A stretch of 34,008 nt of DNA, taken from NCBI GenBank assembly GCA_016183865.1, contig JACPDT010000006.1:1-34008 (forward strand), in the 5' to 3' direction. Shown here one piece after another: positions 4,529-32,632 of this stretch. Source of the DNA: Armatimonadota bacterium. Lineage in GTDB: Bacteria > Vulcanimicrobiota > JACPDT01. The notes under the pieces were generated by a model. The model saw nothing but the letters and a program-made list of their open reading frames with translations, had not been told where the DNA came from and did no database searches. Both the position numbers and the translations under genes were made by a program. The first letter of the stretch is position 1, and every line of letters starts with the position of its first letter.

Positions 4529-7500
4529 CTACCTCACCTCCAAAGTCACCGGCAGCGATTCTGCGCTGACCTTTGGATCATAGTAGAGATAAGCCCTCGA
4601 TGAGGGGGTTTTAGCCCGGAGGGGGTATTTCGCCTTCAGACGATAAGAGAGAGTGAACTCTTTTCCGGCTTCGATCCGCTCCAGGTAGAGGACGATCTGG
4701 CGTCCGGTGAGGCTGTATTTCTGGATCTTCTGGCTTCCCACGAGCTCATCGAAATCTCCTGCCTGGACTTCGAATCCTGGAGGAACGCCCAGATCGAGCA
4801 TCACCATATTTGCCGTCTTTTTGGAGAGATTTCGGACCTTTACTTTGCAGGTGACTGTATCGGCTTTGGCGAGCTCGGTTCGGTCATAGGAGACATGGAT
4901 GTCCAGCATCTCCTCCGAAGCCATTCGGGTCTTTTCCCAGGGAATGTGGTATTTCCCCGCGACTTTGAACATGCAGTTCCCCTGACCTGTCATGGTGAGG
5001 AGGATGGTGTTTTTCCCTTTTCGGGTTTCCGATTTCAGATCCACTTGATGGACCACATCATAGTTATCCGGTGTGATTCGGAAAGAGGCGCTCTTCACTC
5101 CATTGATAGCGATGGTCACCTGGCCGTCCACTTTCTCAGAGGCTTTTTCCAGGGAAAGGATCATGGTCCGCAATGCAAGGACTGTGGATTGGGTGGTGTG
5201 CCAGGTGCCGTATGCGTCTTTGCCCTGTACCAGCCAGGTGATGCCCCGATTGGCGATTTCCGGATGGGTTCCGGCTCGAAGAAGAGCGTGAATCGCCAGT
5301 GCTGTTGTCTCGATATCTGCGGCTGTGCCGGTGGAATAGGCGGCAGTGGCGATCGTGGATTTCCAGAATGTGCCGTCTTTCTCATCCACCCTCATCTTGA
5401 GAAGGCGCTCGACGGCATCCTCTGTTGCCTTATCGGTGGGGGAGTGGGAAGCCAGAGCATTGGCGCAAAGAGCCAGAGTATACGGATCCCTGGCCTCATC
5501 GAGGTGTTTCGCGATGTAGTTTGCGCCTTTTTCCGTCTGGGGGGAGCGGTCTCCTGTTTCCAGCAGAGCCCAGGTGATATAGGCAGTGGAAGGAAGGGCG
5601 CTGTTGGGGACATTGCTCCAGCCTTCTGCGTAGAAGCCCTGCCTTCCGGCGCCCCAGGCGCCGTCCTTGTCCTGTTGCGAGAAAAGCCAGGACCTGGTTC
5701 TGGCGATAAGGGCAGGATCCACTTCATGGACCTGGGCCATATCGGAAAACTCCATGAGCCCGAATGCGGTTAAGATTGGATTTGCCGGGGCCTGCCCGAA
5801 AACCGAAAATCCGCCGCCCGGAACCTCAAAGGTCAGGAGCCTCTGATAGCCGGCATTGATGAAGCCGTCTGCTTTCATGCGGATCTCCGGGGTGATTTTT
5901 CCTGTTTTCCGGAGGTATTGGAGCACAAGGACATTAGGATATGTGGTGGATGAGGTTTGCTCAAAACATCCTCCGGGCATGCGGAGCAAGGCATCCATCC
6001 CTTCCACAACCTGGGAGAAGATCCCCGGGTACACGGTCACCAGGATCTTGCCCGACCCGTCAATGGCCTCTCCGGGAATCTCGACAGGAACAGTGACTTC
6101 CCCCCGAAGGCGGTCGCTCTTGCTCACAATGATCTCCTCGCCGTCCGGAACCACCTCAATGCTTCTTCGAACGGCATCTGAAAGGACCGTGCCTTTGGCC
6201 GTGATGGTCAGGTTCTTGACTCCTATGCCTGTCGCCCTTATGGGAAAATAAGCGACTGTCACCTCATTGGGCTTGAGCGCAAGAGATTTCACCGTTTCCC
6301 CGATGGGCTCGAACCAGGAGTCCTTCTCCAAAGAGATGCGAACGATCTGGGGCTTCCGAAGATAGTTGTAAACGGCAACAGGGATGGAGATCCGATCCCC
6401 CTGAGTGAGCCTGACAGGGAGGTCGGGATCCACAAAAAAGTCCTGGAAGACTCGGATGGGCTTTTGCCCGTATCCCATTTCCCCTTGAAGGGAGGAAGCG
6501 AAAGCCCTGAGACGCCAGGTTGTGATGGAATCGGCCAGGGGAACCCTGATGGAGGCGTTCCCCCTGTCATCTGTGATCACTTGCGGGTTGGTGTACAGAG
6601 TTTCCGGGAAATACTCCCTGACCCTTGGGGCCTCCTGGTCCTTTGCGCCGGTGGTCGGTGTGGACGTGGCCGGTTTCAGCATCTCTCCTGCCTCAGCCTT
6701 CGCTTCAGGCACGGGCATGGCCCCGCCCATAGGGCCATTCATTACTATTCCGTCTCTCAAGAGAGCTCTCCCGTCAAGCTCGAAATACCGCATGGCATAG
6801 AGGTTCGAAATCTCCATGTCATCGGCGGTATGGAGCCTGCCGTCGGGGCCGAGGGAAAGAACTTTTGGCGCCCCTTTCTCAGTGAACTCCTCGATCCAGT
6901 ATGGGCGACCCCAGGGATCCAGAATCTGGTCCTTTCTCAAAAGACCCTCCTGAGACAGGACGGTGGCCCAGGCCCTTTTCAGGGGGTACCCGTGGCGGGT
7001 CGAATGTCGCCGAAGCGCGTCCAGGAGTGAAGGCCATTGGGAGAACATCTGCTGCCTCTTAAGCTGAGAGCTATCAAGTTTGACGGGGTAGAGATCCTTT
7101 TCAGGCAATTGGGAGAAAAGGGCTCTTGAGAGTTTTTCTTTTCTGGGCACGGGCGCCGACTGGGCTGCCACGTCAGGGAAGGTGAAACCATGGATTTCAT
7201 AGCCAGGGGAGAGAAGCTCCTTTTCCAGGAGAAAATAGACGCGCTCAAGACCAGGCTTCTGCTCCGCAAGGTAAAACAGACTTTCATCCACTATGTCAAC
7301 CCCCAGGGCGGAAACCTTCGGACCTCCCTTTGGATCGGTTACATGGAATCCGATGAGGGCGCTTTCCCCCGGCCTGTACGTCTTCTTGTCAAGGGAAACC
7401 GCCACCTTGAGATCCCCTGAAGGCTGAACAAAGATTCTTCGGGTGTCACGGACACTGTTCCCGTCCCTGGAAATCTGATAGGCATGGAGAGTCATGAGCC

Positions 7501-9031
7501 CCCGCATTTGAGAAGAAACAGGAACAGAGAAATGACCCCTCCCTGAACCCATCTCTATGGTGGCGGTCAGCACTGTCTGATCGTTTTGAATGAGATCCAG
7601 ATAAACGGCGCCCGATGGACGGGTGGAAAGGATCGTGCCTGAGAGGATTTCCCCCTGTTTCAGAAGGGAGCGATCCGGGCGGATCAACACGCTGTCAGGT
7701 GTTCCCTTCTGCGGGAGGGCCCTCTGAATCTCGACCTTGTTTCCTTTACTGTCCGTAACTCTCAGAAACAGCGTTGTCTCTCTTCCTGACTGCGGAGTCA
7801 CCTGCACCTCTGCGAAACCTTCGGCGTCCGTGTGAACAGAGATTCTTTTCCCCTGAAACGCGCCGCTGAGAAAGGCCGGCGCTCCCTTGCCGTCAGGGTA
7901 GGATGTCATGATGTAAATGGCATTGGAAAGACCCTTCGAGAGGCTTCCCCCTTCGGGAAAAATGTCCACAACCAGGGGCTGAGGGGCAACGGTGACTGAG
8001 CGATGAGAGACTTCCTTGTGCTGGGCTGTGTCGGTTGCGGAGATCTCCACGGCGAGCCAGCCCTTTCCTTTTTCCAGGGGGATTCCCACAAGATAGCTCG
8101 GGACGGTGAACTCAAAGGAGAAGGCGCCCTCGGAGTCGGTCTTCCCCTGGATCCGGGCCGTTTCCTTTGATTGCACATCAAAGGACCGAACAACAATCTC
8201 CACCTGCGCCCCTTTCACCGGTTTCCCGAAAAAGTACCGGACAACGATATTTCCTTTCACTGTTTCACCCGGCAAATAGAAGGATCGGGCAAAAGTGGGA
8301 ACGATCTTGAACTTGGGAAGGACATAGCGTTTTACGGTGACGCTTTTCTCGTCCCGGGCGTCATCGAGGATGGCCCGAACGTGGTATTCCCCGAGATTCA
8401 CCTCGTCGGCAAGGGTGAAGGCAAAGGAAGCCACGCCGAAGCGGGATGTGTCGCTCTTGTGTTTGCCTACCTTGTTCCCCTTGGAGTCCTCAATCTCGAA
8501 GACCAGTGTGCGACCTGAAAGGGGCGCAAGGGTCCCTTCCGAGAGACACAAGGCCCGCAGGTGCATGGTCTGCCCGGGCTGATAGAGGGGTTTGTCTGTG
8601 GAAAGAAGGATGCGCCTTCCCTCCTGCACCTGAACAGGGAAAGAGGCGACAGGCTTATCAGGAAAATCATCCTGAAAGAGGGCGAGGGTTCCTTCACCCG
8701 CAAGCTGAGCAGGGATCAGGCCGTGAACCGGAAGGTTTCCAAGAGAGTCGGTCTTGCCCGAGAATAGAGTGCGCTTGCCACATTTCCCTGAAAGGACCAG
8801 TGAGAAGGACCGATTCGCAGCAGGCTTCTCGCTTCCCCCGTAAAACGCCATGACCCGCACGGCAAACGGGCTTCCCGCCAGAAGCCGGCTCTGCCCAAGG
8901 ATTCGGACCTCGCAGGGGATTTTCGCGCCATGGGGTACACCCCCGGTAAAGGCGAGGTCCCTGTCGGCAAAATAGGCGCACAACAAGGTGACAACAAGGG
9001 TGGCAACCAGGAATGGTAGATTTTTTCCCAC
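4529..9031 (-). CDS. Alpha-2-macroglobulin family protein with thioester and pseudopilin-like insert
   Basis: A 1500-residue exported protease-trap protein. The N-terminus (FLVATLVVTLLCAYF) is a signal peptide or membrane anchor; the Cys there does not form a good lipobox. Beta-sandwich macroglobulin (MG) domains follow, with typical phrases such as STDKPLYQPGQTMHLRA and YVLPKFKI. The thioester motif G-C-F-E-Q is intact (C1022, Q1025), so covalent capture of attacking proteases is plausible. After it comes an alpha-helical thioester domain (WSNVPNSALPSTAYITWAL) and a C-terminal receptor-binding-like domain. Between MG domains, residues about 661-745 hold DPWGRPYW (D705 onward) and SLGPDGRLHTADD, the C-terminal signature of type II secretion G-type pseudopilins, near where the bait region is expected. 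The start is GTG with AAGGAGGGG upstream. No pbpC partner, commonly paired in enterobacteria, is adjacent. Confidence 0.93.
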   Translation of the reverse strand: MGKNLPFLVATLVVTLLCAYFADRDLAFTGGVPHGAKIPCEVRILGQSRLLAGSPFAVRVMAFYGGSEKPAANRSFSLVLSGKCGKRTLFSGKTDSLGNLPVHGLIPAQLAGEGTLALFQDDFPDKPVASFPVQVQEGRRILLSTDKPLYQPGQTMHLRALCLSEGTLAPLSGRTLVFEIEDSKGNKVGKHKSDTSRFGVASFAFTLADEVNLGEYHVRAILDDARDEKSVTVKRYVLPKFKIVPTFARSFYLPGETVKGNIVVRYFFGKPVKGAQVEIVVRSFDVQSKETARIQGKTDSEGAFSFEFTVPSYLVGIPLEKGKGWLAVEISATDTAQHKEVSHRSVTVAPQPLVVDIFPEGGSLSKGLSNAIYIMTSYPDGKGAPAFLSGAFQGKRISVHTDAEGFAEVQVTPQSGRETTLFLRVTDSKGNKVEIQRALPQKGTPDSVLIRPDRSLLKQGEILSGTILSTRPSGAVYLDLIQNDQTVLTATIEMGSGRGHFSVPVSSQMRGLMTLHAYQISRDGNSVRDTRRIFVQPSGDLKVAVSLDKKTYRPGESALIGFHVTDPKGGPKVSALGVDIVDESLFYLAEQKPGLERVYFLLEKELLSPGYEIHGFTFPDVAAQSAPVPRKEKLSRALFSQLPEKDLYPVKLDSSQLKRQQMFSQWPSLLDALRRHSTRHGYPLKRAWATVLSQEGLLRKDQILDPWGRPYWIEEFTEKGAPKVLSLGPDGRLHTADDMEISNLYAMRYFELDGRALLRDGIVMNGPMGGAMPVPEAKAEAGEMLKPATSTPTTGAKDQEAPRVREYFPETLYTNPQVITDDRGNASIRVPLADSITTWRLRAFASSLQGEMGYGQKPIRVFQDFFVDPDLPVRLTQGDRISIPVAVYNYLRKPQIVRISLEKDSWFEPIGETVKSLALKPNEVTVAYFPIRATGIGVKNLTITAKGTVLSDAVRRSIEVVPDGEEIIVSKSDRLRGEVTVPVEIPGEAIDGSGKILVTVYPGIFSQVVEGMDALLRMPGGCFEQTSSTTYPNVLVLQYLRKTGKITPEIRMKADGFINAGYQRLLTFEVPGGGFSVFGQAPANPILTAFGLMEFSDMAQVHEVDPALIARTRSWLFSQQDKDGAWGAGRQGFYAEGWSNVPNSALPSTAYITWALLETGDRSPQTEKGANYIAKHLDEARDPYTLALCANALASHSPTDKATEDAVERLLKMRVDEKDGTFWKSTIATAAYSTGTAADIETTALAIHALLRAGTHPEIANRGITWLVQGKDAYGTWHTTQSTVLALRTMILSLEKASEKVDGQVTIAINGVKSASFRITPDNYDVVHQVDLKSETRKGKNTILLTMTGQGNCMFKVAGKYHIPWEKTRMASEEMLDIHVSYDRTELAKADTVTCKVKVRNLSKKTANMVMLDLGVPPGFEVQAGDFDELVGSQKIQKYSLTGRQIVLYLERIEAGKEFTLSYRLKAKYPLRAKTPSSRAYLYYDPKVSAESLPVTLEVR

Positions 9032-26337: not shown

Positions 26338-27432
26338 TCACGGGGCGGTCGAGACGTTGACCTCCTCAGGGACGTAGTAATAGGGGTCAGCTACGGTCAT
26401 GTTCGCATTCGGGTGACTGGCATTGTATCCATTCACCCACTCCGTTATGTCATACTGGTTGTCGGAGAACAGGCTCCCTATCGGACGGGTGATGAGCCCG
26501 CCGACGCCGTCCTGTGTAGGTGGAGAGATGGTATCCCAGGGCTTGTTGGTCGTATCCTGATTCGTGAACGCCCACTGTGTGAGGTTGACCGCATCCTGGG
26601 GTGTGATTCGCTGGTCTCTGAGCGCCTCTCCAAGCATCGCCGCGAAGTAACCGTTGCGAGTATCACCCGGATTGGTCGCATAGTTGTCCATGAAATCCTG
26701 TGCCGATCCAGCCAATTTGCTCCCCCTGTTGTGCCCGACCTGAAGCAATTCGCCGAAATGGTGAGTCACGGTACTTGTGGGGTCTGCATCTACTATATTC
26801 GGATCGAATCCAGCGGCGACGGTGGAGCCGCCGTTCTGTCCGTTGATGGTTTGATGCATGCTCTCCAACACAACACCTGCGGGGTTCTGCCCCGCCCCCA
26901 TCACGCCCCGGCCACCCTCCATGATCCCAAGGCCGCTCTGACCGGCATTCCCCTCCGAAAACGCCATTCCGACAAGGTGGACGAACTGGTCATGGTCATT
27001 TCCGGAGATATCCGCCGCGTGTTGCATCACATTGATCATGTATTGCGATTCATTGGTGTCTCCGTTGTTGAGAGATTCCAGCTCATCAAGAGTTGCGTCA
27101 TACATGTGGCGGTCATCTTCATCCAGATTCTGAATGGCCTGCTTTTCTTCATCGGTGAGGGGAGCGTGGAGAGGGTGTCCGTTCTTGTCTTTCATGCCTT
27201 CGACCCGCTCGATGAGCTGCTCCGATGTGGGCGGCGGATCATCCAGGGATTGCTGAGCTTCTTGAGTCAGCCTGATCTCGTCCCGCTCATCAGGAGACAA
27301 GCCCCCGGTGGCTGCGCCGTGTCCGTCCGCGACGGGCGTGTCTCGTGCAGCGGTTGGAGTTACCGATTCTTTCTTGAGAGTGGTTTGTTCTTTTTTTGCC
27401 GGTGCGCCAGTGACACCCTCGACCACAGCCAT
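26338..27432 (-). CDS. Large soluble protein of unknown function
   Basis: 364 residues from ATG 27432 with AGGAGGGG six bases upstream. The first 120 residues are hydrophilic and low-complexity, rich in Thr, Ala, Glu and Asp (KKEQTTLKKESVTPT; LTDEEKQAIQNLDEDDRHMY). The middle is Gly- and His-rich (FSEGNAGQSGLGIMEGGRG; VTHHFGELLQVGHNRGSK), followed by a helical part (NGYFAAMLGEALRDQRITP, DAVNLTQWAFTNQ). There is no signal peptide, Cys or membrane helix. An antisense frame of similar length covers it (26413-27459), but only this strand has a good start site and downstream terminators. I cannot name a family; a secreted effector without a Sec signal is one guess. Confidence 0.7.
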   Translation of the reverse strand: MAVVEGVTGAPAKKEQTTLKKESVTPTAARDTPVADGHGAATGGLSPDERDEIRLTQEAQQSLDDPPPTSEQLIERVEGMKDKNGHPLHAPLTDEEKQAIQNLDEDDRHMYDATLDELESLNNGDTNESQYMINVMQHAADISGNDHDQFVHLVGMAFSEGNAGQSGLGIMEGGRGVMGAGQNPAGVVLESMHQTINGQNGGSTVAAGFDPNIVDADPTSTVTHHFGELLQVGHNRGSKLAGSAQDFMDNYATNPGDTRNGYFAAMLGEALRDQRITPQDAVNLTQWAFTNQDTTNKPWDTISPPTQDGVGGLITRPIGSLFSDNQYDITEWVNGYNASHPNANMTVADPYYYVPEEVNVSTAP

Positions 27433-27649: not shown

Positions 27650-28159
27650 CTAAGATGGCGGTTCCCCTGCGATTTTCGTGACTCCCCACACAATGGTGGC
27701 GGCAGCCATAACAGCGGCCATGCCGGCGACCGTCCCGCCGACTCCGGCAACCAGACGGCCTACTTCCGGGGTCAGCGCATTACTGACCACCTGGCCGACT
27801 CCTGCGCTGAGGCCGGTTACAATCAACCCCTCGGCGACGCCGGATCCGACTGAGTCCATGAAGTTCTTTCCTTCTGAAGCTGCGCCCAGATACCCCTTGA
27901 TTCCTCCAGCCGCGACGGCCAGAAGGAAGCCAGGAGGTCCTAAAAAGGCTCCTGCCGCGCCAGCTAATGCCAGCTCGCCGAAGGCATGGACTCTGGGGTT
28001 CGAAAGAAAGGACTTGACTTTCTCCAGAGTGCTGCCTGAGGTTTCCACGGAATCCCGCGGCTGCCCTTGCAGGGCTTGCTGGGTTTTCCCTTCACCCGCG
28101 ATCTCACGCAGATTCGCCGAGCTGATTGATGATGGATTAATGGATGGCAACAATGACAT
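27650..28159 (-). CDS. Small protein with Ser/Gln-rich head and long Gly/Ala hydrophobic tail
   Basis: 169 residues from ATG 28159 with GGGAGGG upstream. Residues 1-60 are hydrophilic (LPSINPSSISSANLREIAG; QQALQGQPRDSVETSGSTL). From about 61 on there are repeated Gly/Ala-rich hydrophobic stretches (ELALAGAAGAFLGPPGFLL, VAAGGIKGYLGA, VAEGLIVTGLSAGVGQVV, GVGGTVAGMAAVMAAAT) like glycine-zipper membrane proteins, and a short charged end. No signal peptide. It shares this plan with 22397 and 4240, suggesting a lineage-specific group. A minus-strand promoter candidate lies at 28201-28229. Function unknown. Confidence 0.65.
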   Translation of the reverse strand: MSLLPSINPSSISSANLREIAGEGKTQQALQGQPRDSVETSGSTLEKVKSFLSNPRVHAFGELALAGAAGAFLGPPGFLLAVAAGGIKGYLGAASEGKNFMDSVGSGVAEGLIVTGLSAGVGQVVSNALTPEVGRLVAGVGGTVAGMAAVMAAATIVWGVTKIAGEPPS

Positions 28160-28300: not shown

Positions 28301-28370
28301 GAACACGAATGGACACGAATGAGGCAAGATCATATTCGTGACATTCGCAGTATTAGTGCGATTCGTGTTC
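28301..28370. repeat. Nested inverted repeats built from a CACGAAT unit
   Basis: GAACACGAAT (28301-28310) is exactly inverted at ATTCGTGTTC (28361-28370). Inside it, a second CACGAAT (28314-28320) is inverted at ATTCGTG (28334-28340), with a further ATTAGTG half-site near 28353. The element lies in the leader region upstream of the vWA gene (start 28402). It could fold as a branched RNA, be a regulator-binding array, or be a dispersed intergenic repeat of a kind seen in many environmental genomes. Confidence 0.6.
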
Positions 28371-28401
28371 AGATCCGCTGAATTGCATAAGGAGGTGTCC
28401 C

Positions 28402-29970
28402 GTGAAAATCGTCTTGACTACCGACAAGATCCCCTTCGGCAAGGCTTTATCCGATACCGCGGATTTTCCACTGGTTGCGGGGATTGTCTTTGAGGAAAAG
28501 GACCTGGAGACTCGAAGTGTTGCCGCAGAGCCCATCAAATGCGAAGGATGCGGGGCCATTCTGACCGATCTTTCGGAAGTCAGGGAGGACCCCAGGCTGG
28601 GCACCGTTTTCCAGTGCAGCTTCTGTAATGCAATTCACAAAGTGCCGAAAAATTTGCCTCAGGAAATTTTGGCGAATGCCGATTTCGTGCTACCCCTTGA
28701 GGCCCAGCCCCGGGAGTCCTTTGCGGACACACTGATTGCCTGTATTGACATCTCGGGCTCCATGGAGGGAGGCGCCCTGGAAGCAGTCAAGAGCTCCCTT
28801 GTGAGCACACTGAGGGACTTGCAGCACGCTTCTCCGGAAACGCGATTCGGCCTGGTCACATTCAGCGATGATGTGCGCCTCTATGTGGAGCCGGGCGCCA
28901 TCGCCAGGACCCTTGGAGATGAGCAGGTCCTGCTCTCGGTGGACAAGATCAAAAAAGACATCCTGTCGGCCCGCTTGACTTTGCACCCCTTGAGCCGGAT
29001 CGGCGAAGGAATGCGCTCTTTTGTTTCGGCCCTCCGGACGGAGGGCTCCACGGCACTGGGTCCCGCGGTAGTTGCGGCATCCGCACTCCTGGAGAAGCGG
29101 CCCCACGGGCGCATCGTTCTTCTCACAGACGGTCAGGCCAACAGGGGAGTAGGCTCATTGGATCACCCCACTCCGGTGGGCAAGAAGCTGTATGAAGACC
29201 TTGCCGGAGAGTTCGCGAAAAGGGGAATCATCTGCGACATCGTGGCCATCTCAGGGTCTGGAACGGTTGAGGTCAAAGCATTGGCCGTCCTGCCGTCATC
29301 AACAGGAGGCGATCTTTTCTATGTATCTGTTGAGGAGCTGGAATCCACGTTTCAGACTCTCGGGACAGTGGATTATTATGGCAGAAATGCGGTGCTCAAA
29401 GTTTTGACTCCGAGCGGAATCCAGGTATCGGATCTGAGCGGCGTGGCGTCGGGAGTTGGGCCCCAGGCAAGGGTGGCTCTCGGTCATCTGGCTTCCGGAC
29501 GGGAAGTCTACTATGGATTCAAAAGCGACAAGGGAATTGCCGCAGGGCAGACCGTTCCTGTCCAGTTTCAACTGGAATGGACCGACACTCAGGGGAATTC
29601 CCATGTGACTGTGAAAACCGTGAACCTGACAGGGACGGAGAAATCGGAGGAGATCCTTGCAGCATACAATCCCTTGCCCTGGACAATCATGGAGGTTCAA
29701 AAGGCTGGAGAAGATGCATTCCAGTTCGATTTTGACCACTCAAAGGACAGGCTTCAAAGAGTGAAATCTCTTTTGCAGAAGCTCACTCGTGCCCCGAGGG
29801 AAAAGAGCGAAAACTGCATGCAAGTCCTGGGTGAAGAGTTGGCGCAGATTGATGAAATCGTTCAGAGGAGGCACAGCTCCTCCTATTATGATGACAGCAC
29901 CTATGAGTCCTATTCCATGACAAGACGGAGAAGCTCGGCGCCGCCGCCCAAGCGGAGAAAGCTCGTCTGA
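28402..29970 (+). CDS. Zinc-ribbon + vWA protein with Sec23/Sec24-like domain order
   Basis: 522 residues, no signal peptide, so probably cytoplasmic. A zinc ribbon (C47-x2-C50 ... C72-x2-C75, ending SFCNAIHKVP) is followed directly by a von Willebrand A domain with an intact MIDAS: D116-I-S118-G-S120 in ACIDISGSM, T217 in GSTALGP, D243 in LLTDGQAN. Then comes a beta-rich region (NAVLKVLTPSGIQVSDLSG; TVPVQFQLEWTD) and a helical segment (RLQRVKSLLQKLTRAP; EELAQIDEIVQ), ending in a basic, Ser/Pro-rich tail. Zinc finger, vWA trunk, beta-sandwich and helices in this order recall eukaryotic COPII Sec23/Sec24, although the gelsolin domain is absent. GTG 28402 has a perfect AAGGAGGTG. It heads an operon with the two genes after it. 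Confidence 0.85.
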   Translation: MKIVLTTDKIPFGKALSDTADFPLVAGIVFEEKDLETRSVAAEPIKCEGCGAILTDLSEVREDPRLGTVFQCSFCNAIHKVPKNLPQEILANADFVLPLEAQPRESFADTLIACIDISGSMEGGALEAVKSSLVSTLRDLQHASPETRFGLVTFSDDVRLYVEPGAIARTLGDEQVLLSVDKIKKDILSARLTLHPLSRIGEGMRSFVSALRTEGSTALGPAVVAASALLEKRPHGRIVLLTDGQANRGVGSLDHPTPVGKKLYEDLAGEFAKRGIICDIVAISGSGTVEVKALAVLPSSTGGDLFYVSVEELESTFQTLGTVDYYGRNAVLKVLTPSGIQVSDLSGVASGVGPQARVALGHLASGREVYYGFKSDKGIAAGQTVPVQFQLEWTDTQGNSHVTVKTVNLTGTEKSEEILAAYNPLPWTIMEVQKAGEDAFQFDFDHSKDRLQRVKSLLQKLTRAPREKSENCMQVLGEELAQIDEIVQRRHSSSYYDDSTYESYSMTRRRSSAPPPKRRKLV

Positions 29971-29971
29971 C

Positions 29972-30874
29972 TTGGATTGGACCGTCACACTCCCCCTGCA
30001 AAATCGGTTTCCCGAGGCCCGGGATGCTGTCGTAAAATTTGCGGACATCATAGCACAGAGGAGCGGGATATCTGGAATAGCGAGTGTGGGGGGGCTTGCC
30101 AGGGGATATGTTGACAAGCACTCCGATCTGGATCTTCTCGTTTTCGGCGATGTGCCTGGACTCGGAGATCTGGCGTGGGATTTCCTGGAAGGAATGATAA
30201 AGAAAGGCTTCCTGGCGGAGCTTCCCCCGTGGGCCGAAAAAGGCGCCCTGGATGTGCGGGATTCAAAGGTCTGGTCCTTCGTCAAATTCCGGGCTTCACC
30301 CAACAAGACCATAAAGGAGCTGCGCATTCCTGAGCTGGACCCTTTCATAGTGGACCTGGAACTCCTGGACCTCGAGTCCGTTAGATCTGGGGGACCCTGT
30401 GAACACTGGCTTCTGGAGTATCGCTGGATGCTCGGCCACGCCTGGATCCCGTATGACCCATCGGGCGCTGTGCAGGAACTGTTCACAGAGGCGGCGCGCT
30501 ACCATCCGGAGGATCAGACGGCTGACCTGAATGACGAGGCTGAGGCTGTCCATGTCGCTTTCCATCAAGGAGAAACATGGATCCTGCGAGGAGACCCCCT
30601 GAGCGCCTCCTTCTCCATTCACGGGGCCCTGGATCACCTTGTTTCCACCCTATACATTGCGAGGGGGGTTCACGTTCCTTACGGCAAATGGAAGGCCTAT
30701 TATGTTCGAAATCTCCTTCCTCAAGGGGATCCCCTATTCCAGGAGCTGTCCGCCTGTCTGGCAAGCCCGGGGTGCGACCTGCCGAAGCTTCGGAAACATC
30801 TGGAGCGATGCAGGGAACTGAAAAGAAAGCTCTATGACCGCTTTGATGTGAAGGCGAAACGAAAGGGGCTGTGA
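29972..30874 (+). CDS. Nucleotidyltransferase-domain protein with helical C-terminal part
   Basis: 300 residues. The polymerase-beta-type core is visible as VGGLARGYVDKHSDLDLLVF (G40-G41, D52/D54), with a third acidic site near FIVDLELLDLE. The C-terminal half is helical (EAEAVHVAFHQGETWIL; SIHGALDHLVSTLYIARG; KWKAYYVRNLLPQ), as in the minimal nucleotidyltransferase-HEPN style and DUF4037-like proteins. The target is unknown; RNA, protein or aminoglycoside are all possible for the fold. TTG 29972 is one base after the previous stop, with a weak GCGGAG site 15-20 bases ahead; the start is the least certain part. It is coupled to the PfkB kinase by an ATGA overlap. Confidence 0.78.
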   Translation: MDWTVTLPLQNRFPEARDAVVKFADIIAQRSGISGIASVGGLARGYVDKHSDLDLLVFGDVPGLGDLAWDFLEGMIKKGFLAELPPWAEKGALDVRDSKVWSFVKFRASPNKTIKELRIPELDPFIVDLELLDLESVRSGGPCEHWLLEYRWMLGHAWIPYDPSGAVQELFTEAARYHPEDQTADLNDEAEAVHVAFHQGETWILRGDPLSASFSIHGALDHLVSTLYIARGVHVPYGKWKAYYVRNLLPQGDPLFQELSACLASPGCDLPKLRKHLERCRELKRKLYDRFDVKAKRKGL

Positions 30875-31812
30875 TGACGAACAGCACATCCAGGGTTGTC
30901 GGAATCGGCCAGATCGCCTTTGACCTCATCGGCCAGGTGGACCAGTACCCGCCCAAAGACACAAAAAAAGAGCTCCTTTCCTTCTTGATTCAGGGTGGAG
31001 GTCCTGTTGCGACGGCACTGGTCGCACTCTCAAGGCTCGGAGTCCCCACAACCTTCATAGGCAAGGTCTCAGACGATTACTTCGGAAAGGAGGGCTTGAG
31101 ACAACTTCGGGAAGAGAAGGTGGATGTAAGTCATACCGTGGTGGAACCCGACAAGGTGTCCCAGTTTGCCTTTATCGCCGTGGAAAGGGGAGAAGAGGCG
31201 CAAAAATCCGCAGGGGCAAGGACCATTTTCTGGACCCCCGGCACAGTGTCCCCTTTGAAGTCCTCCGAGATCCCCAGGGAGATGATAGAAAACTGCCGCA
31301 TCCTCCATCTGGACGGCCTGATGATTGAGGCATCCCTGGAAGCCGCAAAATGGGCAAAGGGGGCGGGGGTTCCGGTCACTCTGGATGCAGGGAAGCTCCG
31401 GGATGGAATGCCGGACCTTGTGAGTCTATCCACCATCCTCATAGCCTCCGAGGAATTCGCCCGAACCTTCGGTGGGAACAAGGGGCTGGAAGAAACGATT
31501 CAGGCCCTCAAGAGCCTGGGACCCGAGCAGGTGACAGTCACCCTCGGCGACAGGGGGAGCCTCACCCTCGGGCCGGAAGGCTGGGAGGGGGTTCCAGCCC
31601 ACCCCGTGGACGTAGTGGACACAACGGGCGCCGGGGACGTGTTCCACGGGGGATTCATCTATGGCTACCTTTCCAAATGGCCCCTCAGGAAGAGCCTGGA
31701 ATTTGCTTCTTTCCTGGCAGCCCAGAAATGCCGCGAAATGGGGGGGAGAGCGGGGATTCCCTATGCTGATGAGGTGAGAGGATTGCGGAAAGGGCATTCC
31801 GGACGGGCGTGA
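30874..31812 (+). CDS. PfkB-family carbohydrate kinase
   Basis: About 312 residues. Both PfkB signatures are present: the N-terminal IGQIAFDLIGQVDQYP, IQGGGPVATALVALSRLG region and the C-terminal DTTGAGDVFHGGFIYG with the catalytic Asp in GAGD. It is closest in style to ribokinase and sulfofructose/ketohexokinase-like members; the sugar or nucleoside cannot be told. ATG 30874 overlaps the preceding stop as ATGA with AAGGGG upstream (GTG 30871 is the alternative). The last 128 bases overlap the end of the convergent YiiX-like gene. Its position behind a vWA protein and a nucleotidyltransferase does not match a known pathway. Confidence 0.9.
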   Translation: MTNSTSRVVGIGQIAFDLIGQVDQYPPKDTKKELLSFLIQGGGPVATALVALSRLGVPTTFIGKVSDDYFGKEGLRQLREEKVDVSHTVVEPDKVSQFAFIAVERGEEAQKSAGARTIFWTPGTVSPLKSSEIPREMIENCRILHLDGLMIEASLEAAKWAKGAGVPVTLDAGKLRDGMPDLVSLSTILIASEEFARTFGGNKGLEETIQALKSLGPEQVTVTLGDRGSLTLGPEGWEGVPAHPVDVVDTTGAGDVFHGGFIYGYLSKWPLRKSLEFASFLAAQKCREMGGRAGIPYADEVRGLRKGHSGRA

Positions 31813-32632
31813 AGATCGTGTAGGTAGTCTCGGGATCTTCTGAAGCCCAGAGCAGTCTTGTTCCGGGGATGGATATGAGGTCATCGGCTGTGACGATCTC
31901 TTTTCCCACTCCAAGCATCTTCCGAAGGGGAATTTGGGGAGGGGTTTTCATTTTCTGCAAGGCCCGGTATAGAAGCTCAGTGCAATATTGGCGCCCGTCT
32001 TCGGTGATGTCAAGACCTGAATCAAACGGTTTTCCCACCTGGGACATCGTGTATCCAATGACCGCTTCCCGATCCTCGTCCGATTTGTATTGGGGTCGCG
32101 CAAGAGCTGCATGATTGACTCCTCGCAGAAAGTTATCCAGAGGGCGAAGCTCAACTCCCCCTCTGGTTGATTCGATGATCAGTCCATTTCCTACATAGAG
32201 AGCCGCATGTATCCAGTTGCAGTTCCACAGGAGCTTGCCGGCAAACTCCAACTGTGGAGCGCCGTCCCTGCGTTGTACAAGGATATCGCCGGGACGGGCG
32301 ATTTCATATACCTGGGCAACCATGGCTTCGGGGAGAAAGGGGCTTGTAGTGCGAAAGCTCCGAAAGGGGAACGCTTTCATGGCGCACAGGATCTTCTGAT
32401 AAAGACTTTGATGCTCTTTCGGACGGCTCTCAAACTCGGGAGGCTCTTTCCATTGGGGCGCCCCTTTTATGTGGTAATGCTGCAACATGGCTTCCCTAGC
32501 CCCGACGAACTCATCCCTCGTAAATTCGTAAACAGCGTGCCCTTCGCGGTAAAAGGGCCCTCTGGACGAACGGAGCTGAGACTGGGGAACCTCTCTGTCG
32601 GGCGATGCACTCAGGCCCGGAATCCGGCCCAT
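31685..32632 (-). CDS. YiiX/YebB-like permuted papain-fold protein (NlpC/P60 superfamily)
   Basis: 315 residues. The permuted NlpC/P60 core runs from about residue 113: PGDILVQRRDG, then CNWIHAALYVGNGLIIEST with the catalytic-type His142, and RQYCTELLYRAL with the nucleophile-type Cys217. Such enzymes cleave amide or ester bonds in peptidoglycan peptides or lipids. The N-terminal 100 residues are unassigned and no signal peptide is present, so a cytoplasmic substrate or non-classical export is implied. ATG 32632 has AGGAGGAGG at good spacing and a consensus promoter upstream (32656-32684). The last 42 codons overlap the pfkB gene on the other strand and look unlike the core (SPHQHRESPLSPPFRG), so the true end may be a read-through extension. 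Confidence 0.82.
   Translation of the reverse strand: MGRIPGLSASPDREVPQSQLRSSRGPFYREGHAVYEFTRDEFVGAREAMLQHYHIKGAPQWKEPPEFESRPKEHQSLYQKILCAMKAFPFRSFRTTSPFLPEAMVAQVYEIARPGDILVQRRDGAPQLEFAGKLLWNCNWIHAALYVGNGLIIESTRGGVELRPLDNFLRGVNHAALARPQYKSDEDREAVIGYTMSQVGKPFDSGLDITEDGRQYCTELLYRALQKMKTPPQIPLRKMLGVGKEIVTADDLISIPGTRLLWASEDPETTYTIFTPVRNALSAILSPHQHRESPLSPPFRGISGLPGKKQIPGSS

Follow-up and report, generated by a model that had tools for sequence, protein, structure and literature searches.

A 522-residue bacterial protein resembling the core of Sec23/Sec24

The window analyzed here is a 34,008-nucleotide stretch of an Armatimonadota genome bin (contig JACPDT010000006.1 of assembly GCA_016183865.1). 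Three open reading frames follow one another on its plus strand (28402-31812), separated by a 1-base gap and then joined by a 4-base overlap (Table 1). The first encodes a 522-residue protein with a vWA domain, while Pfam assigns the second to NTP_transf_2 (E 4.3e-5) and the third to PfkB (E 6e-44). An inverted repeat at 28301-28370, GAACACGAAT ... ATTCGTGTTC, with arms 50 bases apart, occupies the intergenic DNA 5′ of the vWA gene; it is partly matched at nine further sites in the genome, and thus belongs to a dispersed repeat family. A minus-strand reading frame for a Peptidase_C92 protein (permuted papain-like amidase), at 31685-32632, runs toward the PfkB gene, with 128 bases of overlap between the two ends in the present calls. 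Two minus-strand genes, at 27650-28159 and 26338-27432, encode proteins without a Pfam or NCBIfam match, the shorter of which (27650-28159) is glycine- and alanine-rich and resembles a glycine-zipper membrane protein. Further upstream, an alpha-2-macroglobulin-like protein of 1500 residues is encoded at 4529-9031 on the minus strand.

Table 1. Coordinates of the vWA gene, the features of its product and the two downstream genes
Feature	Position	Strand	Details
Ribosome-binding site AAGGAGGT	28389..28396	+	5 bases before GTG start; AAGGAGGTG directly 5′ of same start
Sec23/Sec24-core-like protein gene	28402..29970	+	522 aa; GTG start
C4 zinc ribbon, residues 44-83 (Cys47, 50, 72, 75)	28531..28650	+	Pfam zf-Sec23_Sec24 E 0.0043
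vWA / Sec23 trunk domain, residues 112-312	28735..29337	+	Pfam, PDB profile, tree
MIDAS DxSxS (D116, S118, S120)	28747..28761	+	Invariant in family
MIDAS T217, within TALGPA motif (Sec24: SALGPA)	29050..29052	+	Invariant in family
MIDAS D243	29128..29130	+	Invariant in family
Sec23_BS beta-sandwich, residues 329-409	29386..29628	+	Pfam E 3e-6; strands in models
Helical region, residues 427-511, four predicted helices	29680..29934	+	Low-confidence model
Nucleotidyltransferase gene, NTP_transf_2 fold	29972..30874	+	300 aa; TTG start
PfkB sugar kinase gene	30871..31812	+	313 aa; alternative ATG start at 30874

Along the 522-residue protein, an N-terminal segment is followed by a zinc ribbon, a vWA domain, a beta-sandwich, a predicted helical region and a basic tail. 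Sec23 and Sec24 have the same order of zinc finger, vWA trunk, beta-sandwich and helical region. The first-pass annotation, made from the sequence alone, had proposed a zinc ribbon, a vWA domain with full MIDAS and a beta-sandwich in Sec23/Sec24 order, and this arrangement is upheld by Pfam matches and invariant residues. The Sec23_trunk model matches residues 115-308 at E 1.2e-10, over the curated cut-off, which it also exceeds in all three members of the family described below. The zf-Sec23_Sec24 match has 17.5 bits, under the Pfam curated cut-off of 25, and the zinc ribbon searched alone displays no Sec24 specificity, with other zinc fingers scoring equally well. The Sec23_BS match has 28.2 bits, under the curated cut-off of 33.5; the matches in the family (E 3e-6 and 3.2e-6) are likewise under it, and the alignment to Sec24 continues through the sandwich. 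Invariant in 3/3 family members are the four cysteines (Cys47, 50, 72 and 75) and the five MIDAS residues (D116, S118, S120, T217 and D243). The helical segment that had also been proposed is retained in part, as helices are predicted in the expected place by low-confidence models, but the region has no match to any Pfam family. A Pfam scan of the protein found neither a gelsolin domain, with about 10 residues remaining past the last predicted helix, nor the ArnB C-terminal domain, and no 19-residue segment exceeds 1.7 on the Kyte-Doolittle scale.

Searching 147 genomes of the phylum located the family in two of them: the source genome, which holds a single copy, and a second genome (G002) with two paralogues that are 28-33% identical to the 522-residue protein and 48% identical to each other. 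When 84,980 species genomes were scanned with the family by a method that depends on exact short peptide patterns so that the family may occur elsewhere, the matches were two paralogues in one MAG (‘Bacillota bacterium UR.bin48’) alone. No relatives were found in the viral contigs, plasmids and phages searched, and defence-system models gave only weak matches. Contamination by eukaryotic DNA as the source of the vWA gene was rejected, since the reading frame is unbroken, the ribosome-binding site is strong, GC (0.55) and GC3 (0.64) agree with the neighboring genes, GC agrees with another contig of the bin, and the family is present in a second bacterial genome. The source genome bin (4.4 Mb) is 96% complete and 3% contaminated.

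Sec24 is a building block of the vesicle-budding coat in eukaryotic cells. When a profile of the three-member family was searched against the PDB, Sec24A-D and yeast Sec24 ranked first over residues 117-468, with E 9e-14 to 7e-7 (Sec24B 9e-14, Sec24A 1e-13, Sec24C 4e-10, yeast Sec24 5e-7). The first non-Sec protein appeared at E 0.005, and ArnB was not among the matches. Each G002 paralogue used as a single query also placed Sec24 first. Motifs common to both sides are TALGPA/SALGPA, GVG and FYxxL...C. As controls, five further vWA proteins from the phylum had no Sec23 family match at E up to 1; Sec23_trunk and Sec23_BS are found in 3/3 family members versus 0/5 controls, and the control protein of ArnB architecture has ArnB and ArnE as its top matches. 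Scored with the family HMM, Sec24A/B reach 54 bits, the best control 36, ArnB 12 and ArnE -1. Removing the vWA domain from the HMM leaves Sec24B (17 bits) and Sec24A (15 bits) as the top non-members, with scores that are not significant on their own. A tree of the vWA domain, thinly sampled with 14 sequences (those of Sec24 and ArnB taken from alignment printouts) and with a long Sec24 branch of 3.1 changes per column, joins the family and Sec24 in one group with 100/99 support. Constraining the family to ArnB-type proteins made this tree 28.6 log units worse and was rejected (p-AU 0.00085). A shared insert of approximately 40 residues contributes little to the tree, its columns being mostly excluded by a 50% filling rule. 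Judged by these sequence comparisons, the Sec24 likeness of the 522-residue protein exceeds generic vWA resemblance, and its vWA-to-sandwich part is homologous to Sec24.

AlphaFold2 models built from the three-sequence alignment have a pLDDT of 55.5 and pTM of 0.49 for the 522-residue protein, and 52.8 and 0.50 for a G002 paralogue. Residues 1-108 of the former fall below a pLDDT of 50, and neither model gives a confident placement of the N-terminal strands or of the zinc ribbon, whose packing the first-pass annotation had named as a test. The structure prediction and Foldseek comparison called for by the first-pass annotation ranked Sec23/Sec24 top for either model (E 4e-17 and 8e-16), albeit at these pTM values and with TM-scores of only 0.3-0.45. 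In the list for the 522-residue protein, the Catenulispora protein 4fx5 takes rank 11 and ArnAB ranks 18-19, while for the paralogue both lie outside the best 50, among which no ArnB-type structure is found. Within the viral library, vWA proteins of giant viruses came nearest. The Sec23/Sec24-likeness noted in the first-pass annotation is borne out, against controls, by the profile search, the vWA tree and the Foldseek results.

The proposal that the vWA gene shares an operon with the nucleotidyltransferase and the kinase, and that the three make up an undescribed system, fared differently. Tight spacing favors the operon in the source genome, where the three genes are probably co-transcribed, but none of the other genomes searched has all three together, and a coupled system consequently lacks comparative support. 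The nucleotidyltransferase has a homologue in none of the other phylum genomes searched (1/147 with the source genome) and none among PDB structures. For the PfkB kinase, the best solved homologue is sulfofructose kinase (7ag6, E 2e-31), and a homologue of 52% identity in another genome (G048) has no nucleotidyltransferase alongside. Neighbors of the G002 paralogues, assigned by eye, are PTS enzyme I-like and amidohydrolase-like genes or a glycosyltransferase-like gene, with neither a nucleotidyltransferase nor a PfkB kinase beside them. With differing neighbors, a nucleotidyltransferase unique to one genome and a kinase relative that stands without it, the combination of the three is, to date, known from a single genome. 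One could still picture the three products as a single functional module, for example one that detects or produces a modified sugar phosphate, as the genes are closely packed on one strand and the nucleotidyltransferase (GGLARG...SDLDL) and PfkB (DTTGAGD) motifs are intact by eye; given the lack of conservation, we regard such a module as unlikely. Nothing in the evidence points to the nucleotidyltransferase and kinase sharing the function of the vWA protein.

There are other possible explanations for the nature of the 522-residue protein. It could be an ordinary bacterial protein of the ArnB/YfbK type (vWA, beta-sandwich, helical bundle) preceded by an unrelated zinc ribbon, in which case the Sec24 likeness would be merely the shared vWA fold. 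The ArnB architecture is widespread and Sec23/24-like, and archaeal ArnAB has been called an ortholog of the Sec23/24 core (PDB 8s05; PMC12852372). ArnB/ArnE of Sulfolobus, with ArnA, likewise have a vWA domain, a split beta-sandwich, a helical bundle and a zinc finger packed on the sandwich; the ArnA finger packs against both the sandwich and the C-terminal domain of ArnB, which the authors liken to the same-chain finger of Sec23/24 (PMC12852372). The presence of 4fx5 and ArnAB in the fold list of the 522-residue protein also speaks for this reading. However, the finger of ArnB resides in a separate FHA-domain protein, ArnA, whereas the 522-residue protein has a zinc ribbon in its own chain, and a Pfam scan of the two downstream genes gave no FHA match. 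By sequence, Sec24 is also a far nearer relative of the 522-residue protein than ArnB is, and the rejected grouping with ArnB-type proteins, the missing ArnB among the PDB profile matches, the gap between 12 and 54 bits and the second model without an ArnB-type structure in its best 50 make an ArnB/YfbK-type protein improbable. Alternatively, the core homology to Sec23/Sec24 may invite the idea of a bacterial membrane coat working like COPII, for which the two paralogues in one genome could supply a heterodimer. The source genome has a single family copy, though, and no Sar1, Sec13 or Sec31 partner was identified for the 522-residue protein. A genome search for gelsolin domains also found none, although its control gave no match anywhere either. 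All frames matched by the Arf/Sar1 model, which is unspecific in bacteria, have 515-779 residues, and none is Sar1-sized; these are most likely unrelated larger GTPases, given their size and the matches of the same model in 12/14 control genomes. With the gelsolin domain missing and no Sar1-like partner seen, in searches of which neither is conclusive, we consider a membrane coat very improbable, and nothing in the evidence points to coat formation by the 522-residue protein.

The 522-residue protein is best read as a bacterial, rarely encountered branch of the Sec23/Sec24 core. It differs from Sec23 and Sec24 in being bacterial, in having no gelsolin domain, in its complete MIDAS and in its size (approximately 520 residues versus 750-1000). 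We favor, with some reservation, a Sec23/Sec24-core homologue that is most likely a cytosolic scaffold. The cytosolic location is suggested by the lack of any segment hydrophobic enough to span a membrane, and a scaffolding role accounts most simply for a same-chain finger as in Sec23/24 combined with a complete MIDAS as in ArnB. Most likely, the MIDAS would bind a divalent metal and, via the metal, an acidic ligand on a partner protein, while the ribbon would bind zinc and pack on the beta-sandwich of the same chain, as in Sec23/Sec24 and comparable to the separate ArnA finger on ArnB. The protein would then act as a cytosolic, metal-dependent protein-binding scaffold, a role argued from architecture alone.

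Searches for the prokaryotic ancestry of the COPII coat usually turn to archaea, via ArnB-like or Asgard proteins. The present family may tentatively be placed as a sister group of Sec23/Sec24 within bacteria, having diverged before the eukaryotic loss of the MIDAS and gain of the gelsolin domain, in which case the COPII inner-coat core would have been a metal-dependent scaffold in prokaryotes outside archaea; we hold this to be possible but doubtful. Acquisition of the vWA gene from a eukaryote after COPII had formed appears rather unlikely. The very patchy spread of the family (2/147 phylum genomes) would suit such uptake, as would the midpoint-rooted vWA tree, where Sec24 is nested inside the family with support of 93/87 only. 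The aligned stretches of Sec24A/B in the PDB profile alignment, however, have neither DxSxS nor the TDG aspartate, so that a later arrival would require the regain of all five MIDAS residues, which is unlikely. It is possible that the donor was instead a eukaryotic vWA-zinc-finger protein without a part in COPII, for example one of the kind joined to cpRAS (PMC2430557). Eukaryotic proteins with a four-cysteine zinc finger ahead of the vWA domain occur with or without cpRAS; compared by description only, they have the finger followed by a vWA domain called Sec23_trunk by Pfam, and no gelsolin domain is reported for them (PMC2430557). Passages in PMC7997004 and PMC9648965 cite Sec23/Sec24 family proteins in Thorarchaeota, which by description are also prokaryotic, but archaeal.

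In the papers that our literature search on bacterial Sec23/24 covered, no relative from bacteria is described that lies nearer to Sec24 than to ArnB. Some bacterial proteins are listed under Sec23_trunk in public domain tables; the 522-residue protein would in that light add one member to a set with little description so far. A bacterial family nearer to Sec24 than the ArnB types are, and retaining the metal site that Sec24 has lost, offers a tractable intermediate for asking which role the Sec23/24 core had prior to vesicle coating, and bears on the origin of the coat. Other vWA proteins of the phylum are fused to NAD/ADP-ribose enzymes, one with a Sir2 domain (L012:316-2292) and one with an ADP-ribosylglycohydrolase domain (L009:1201-3399).
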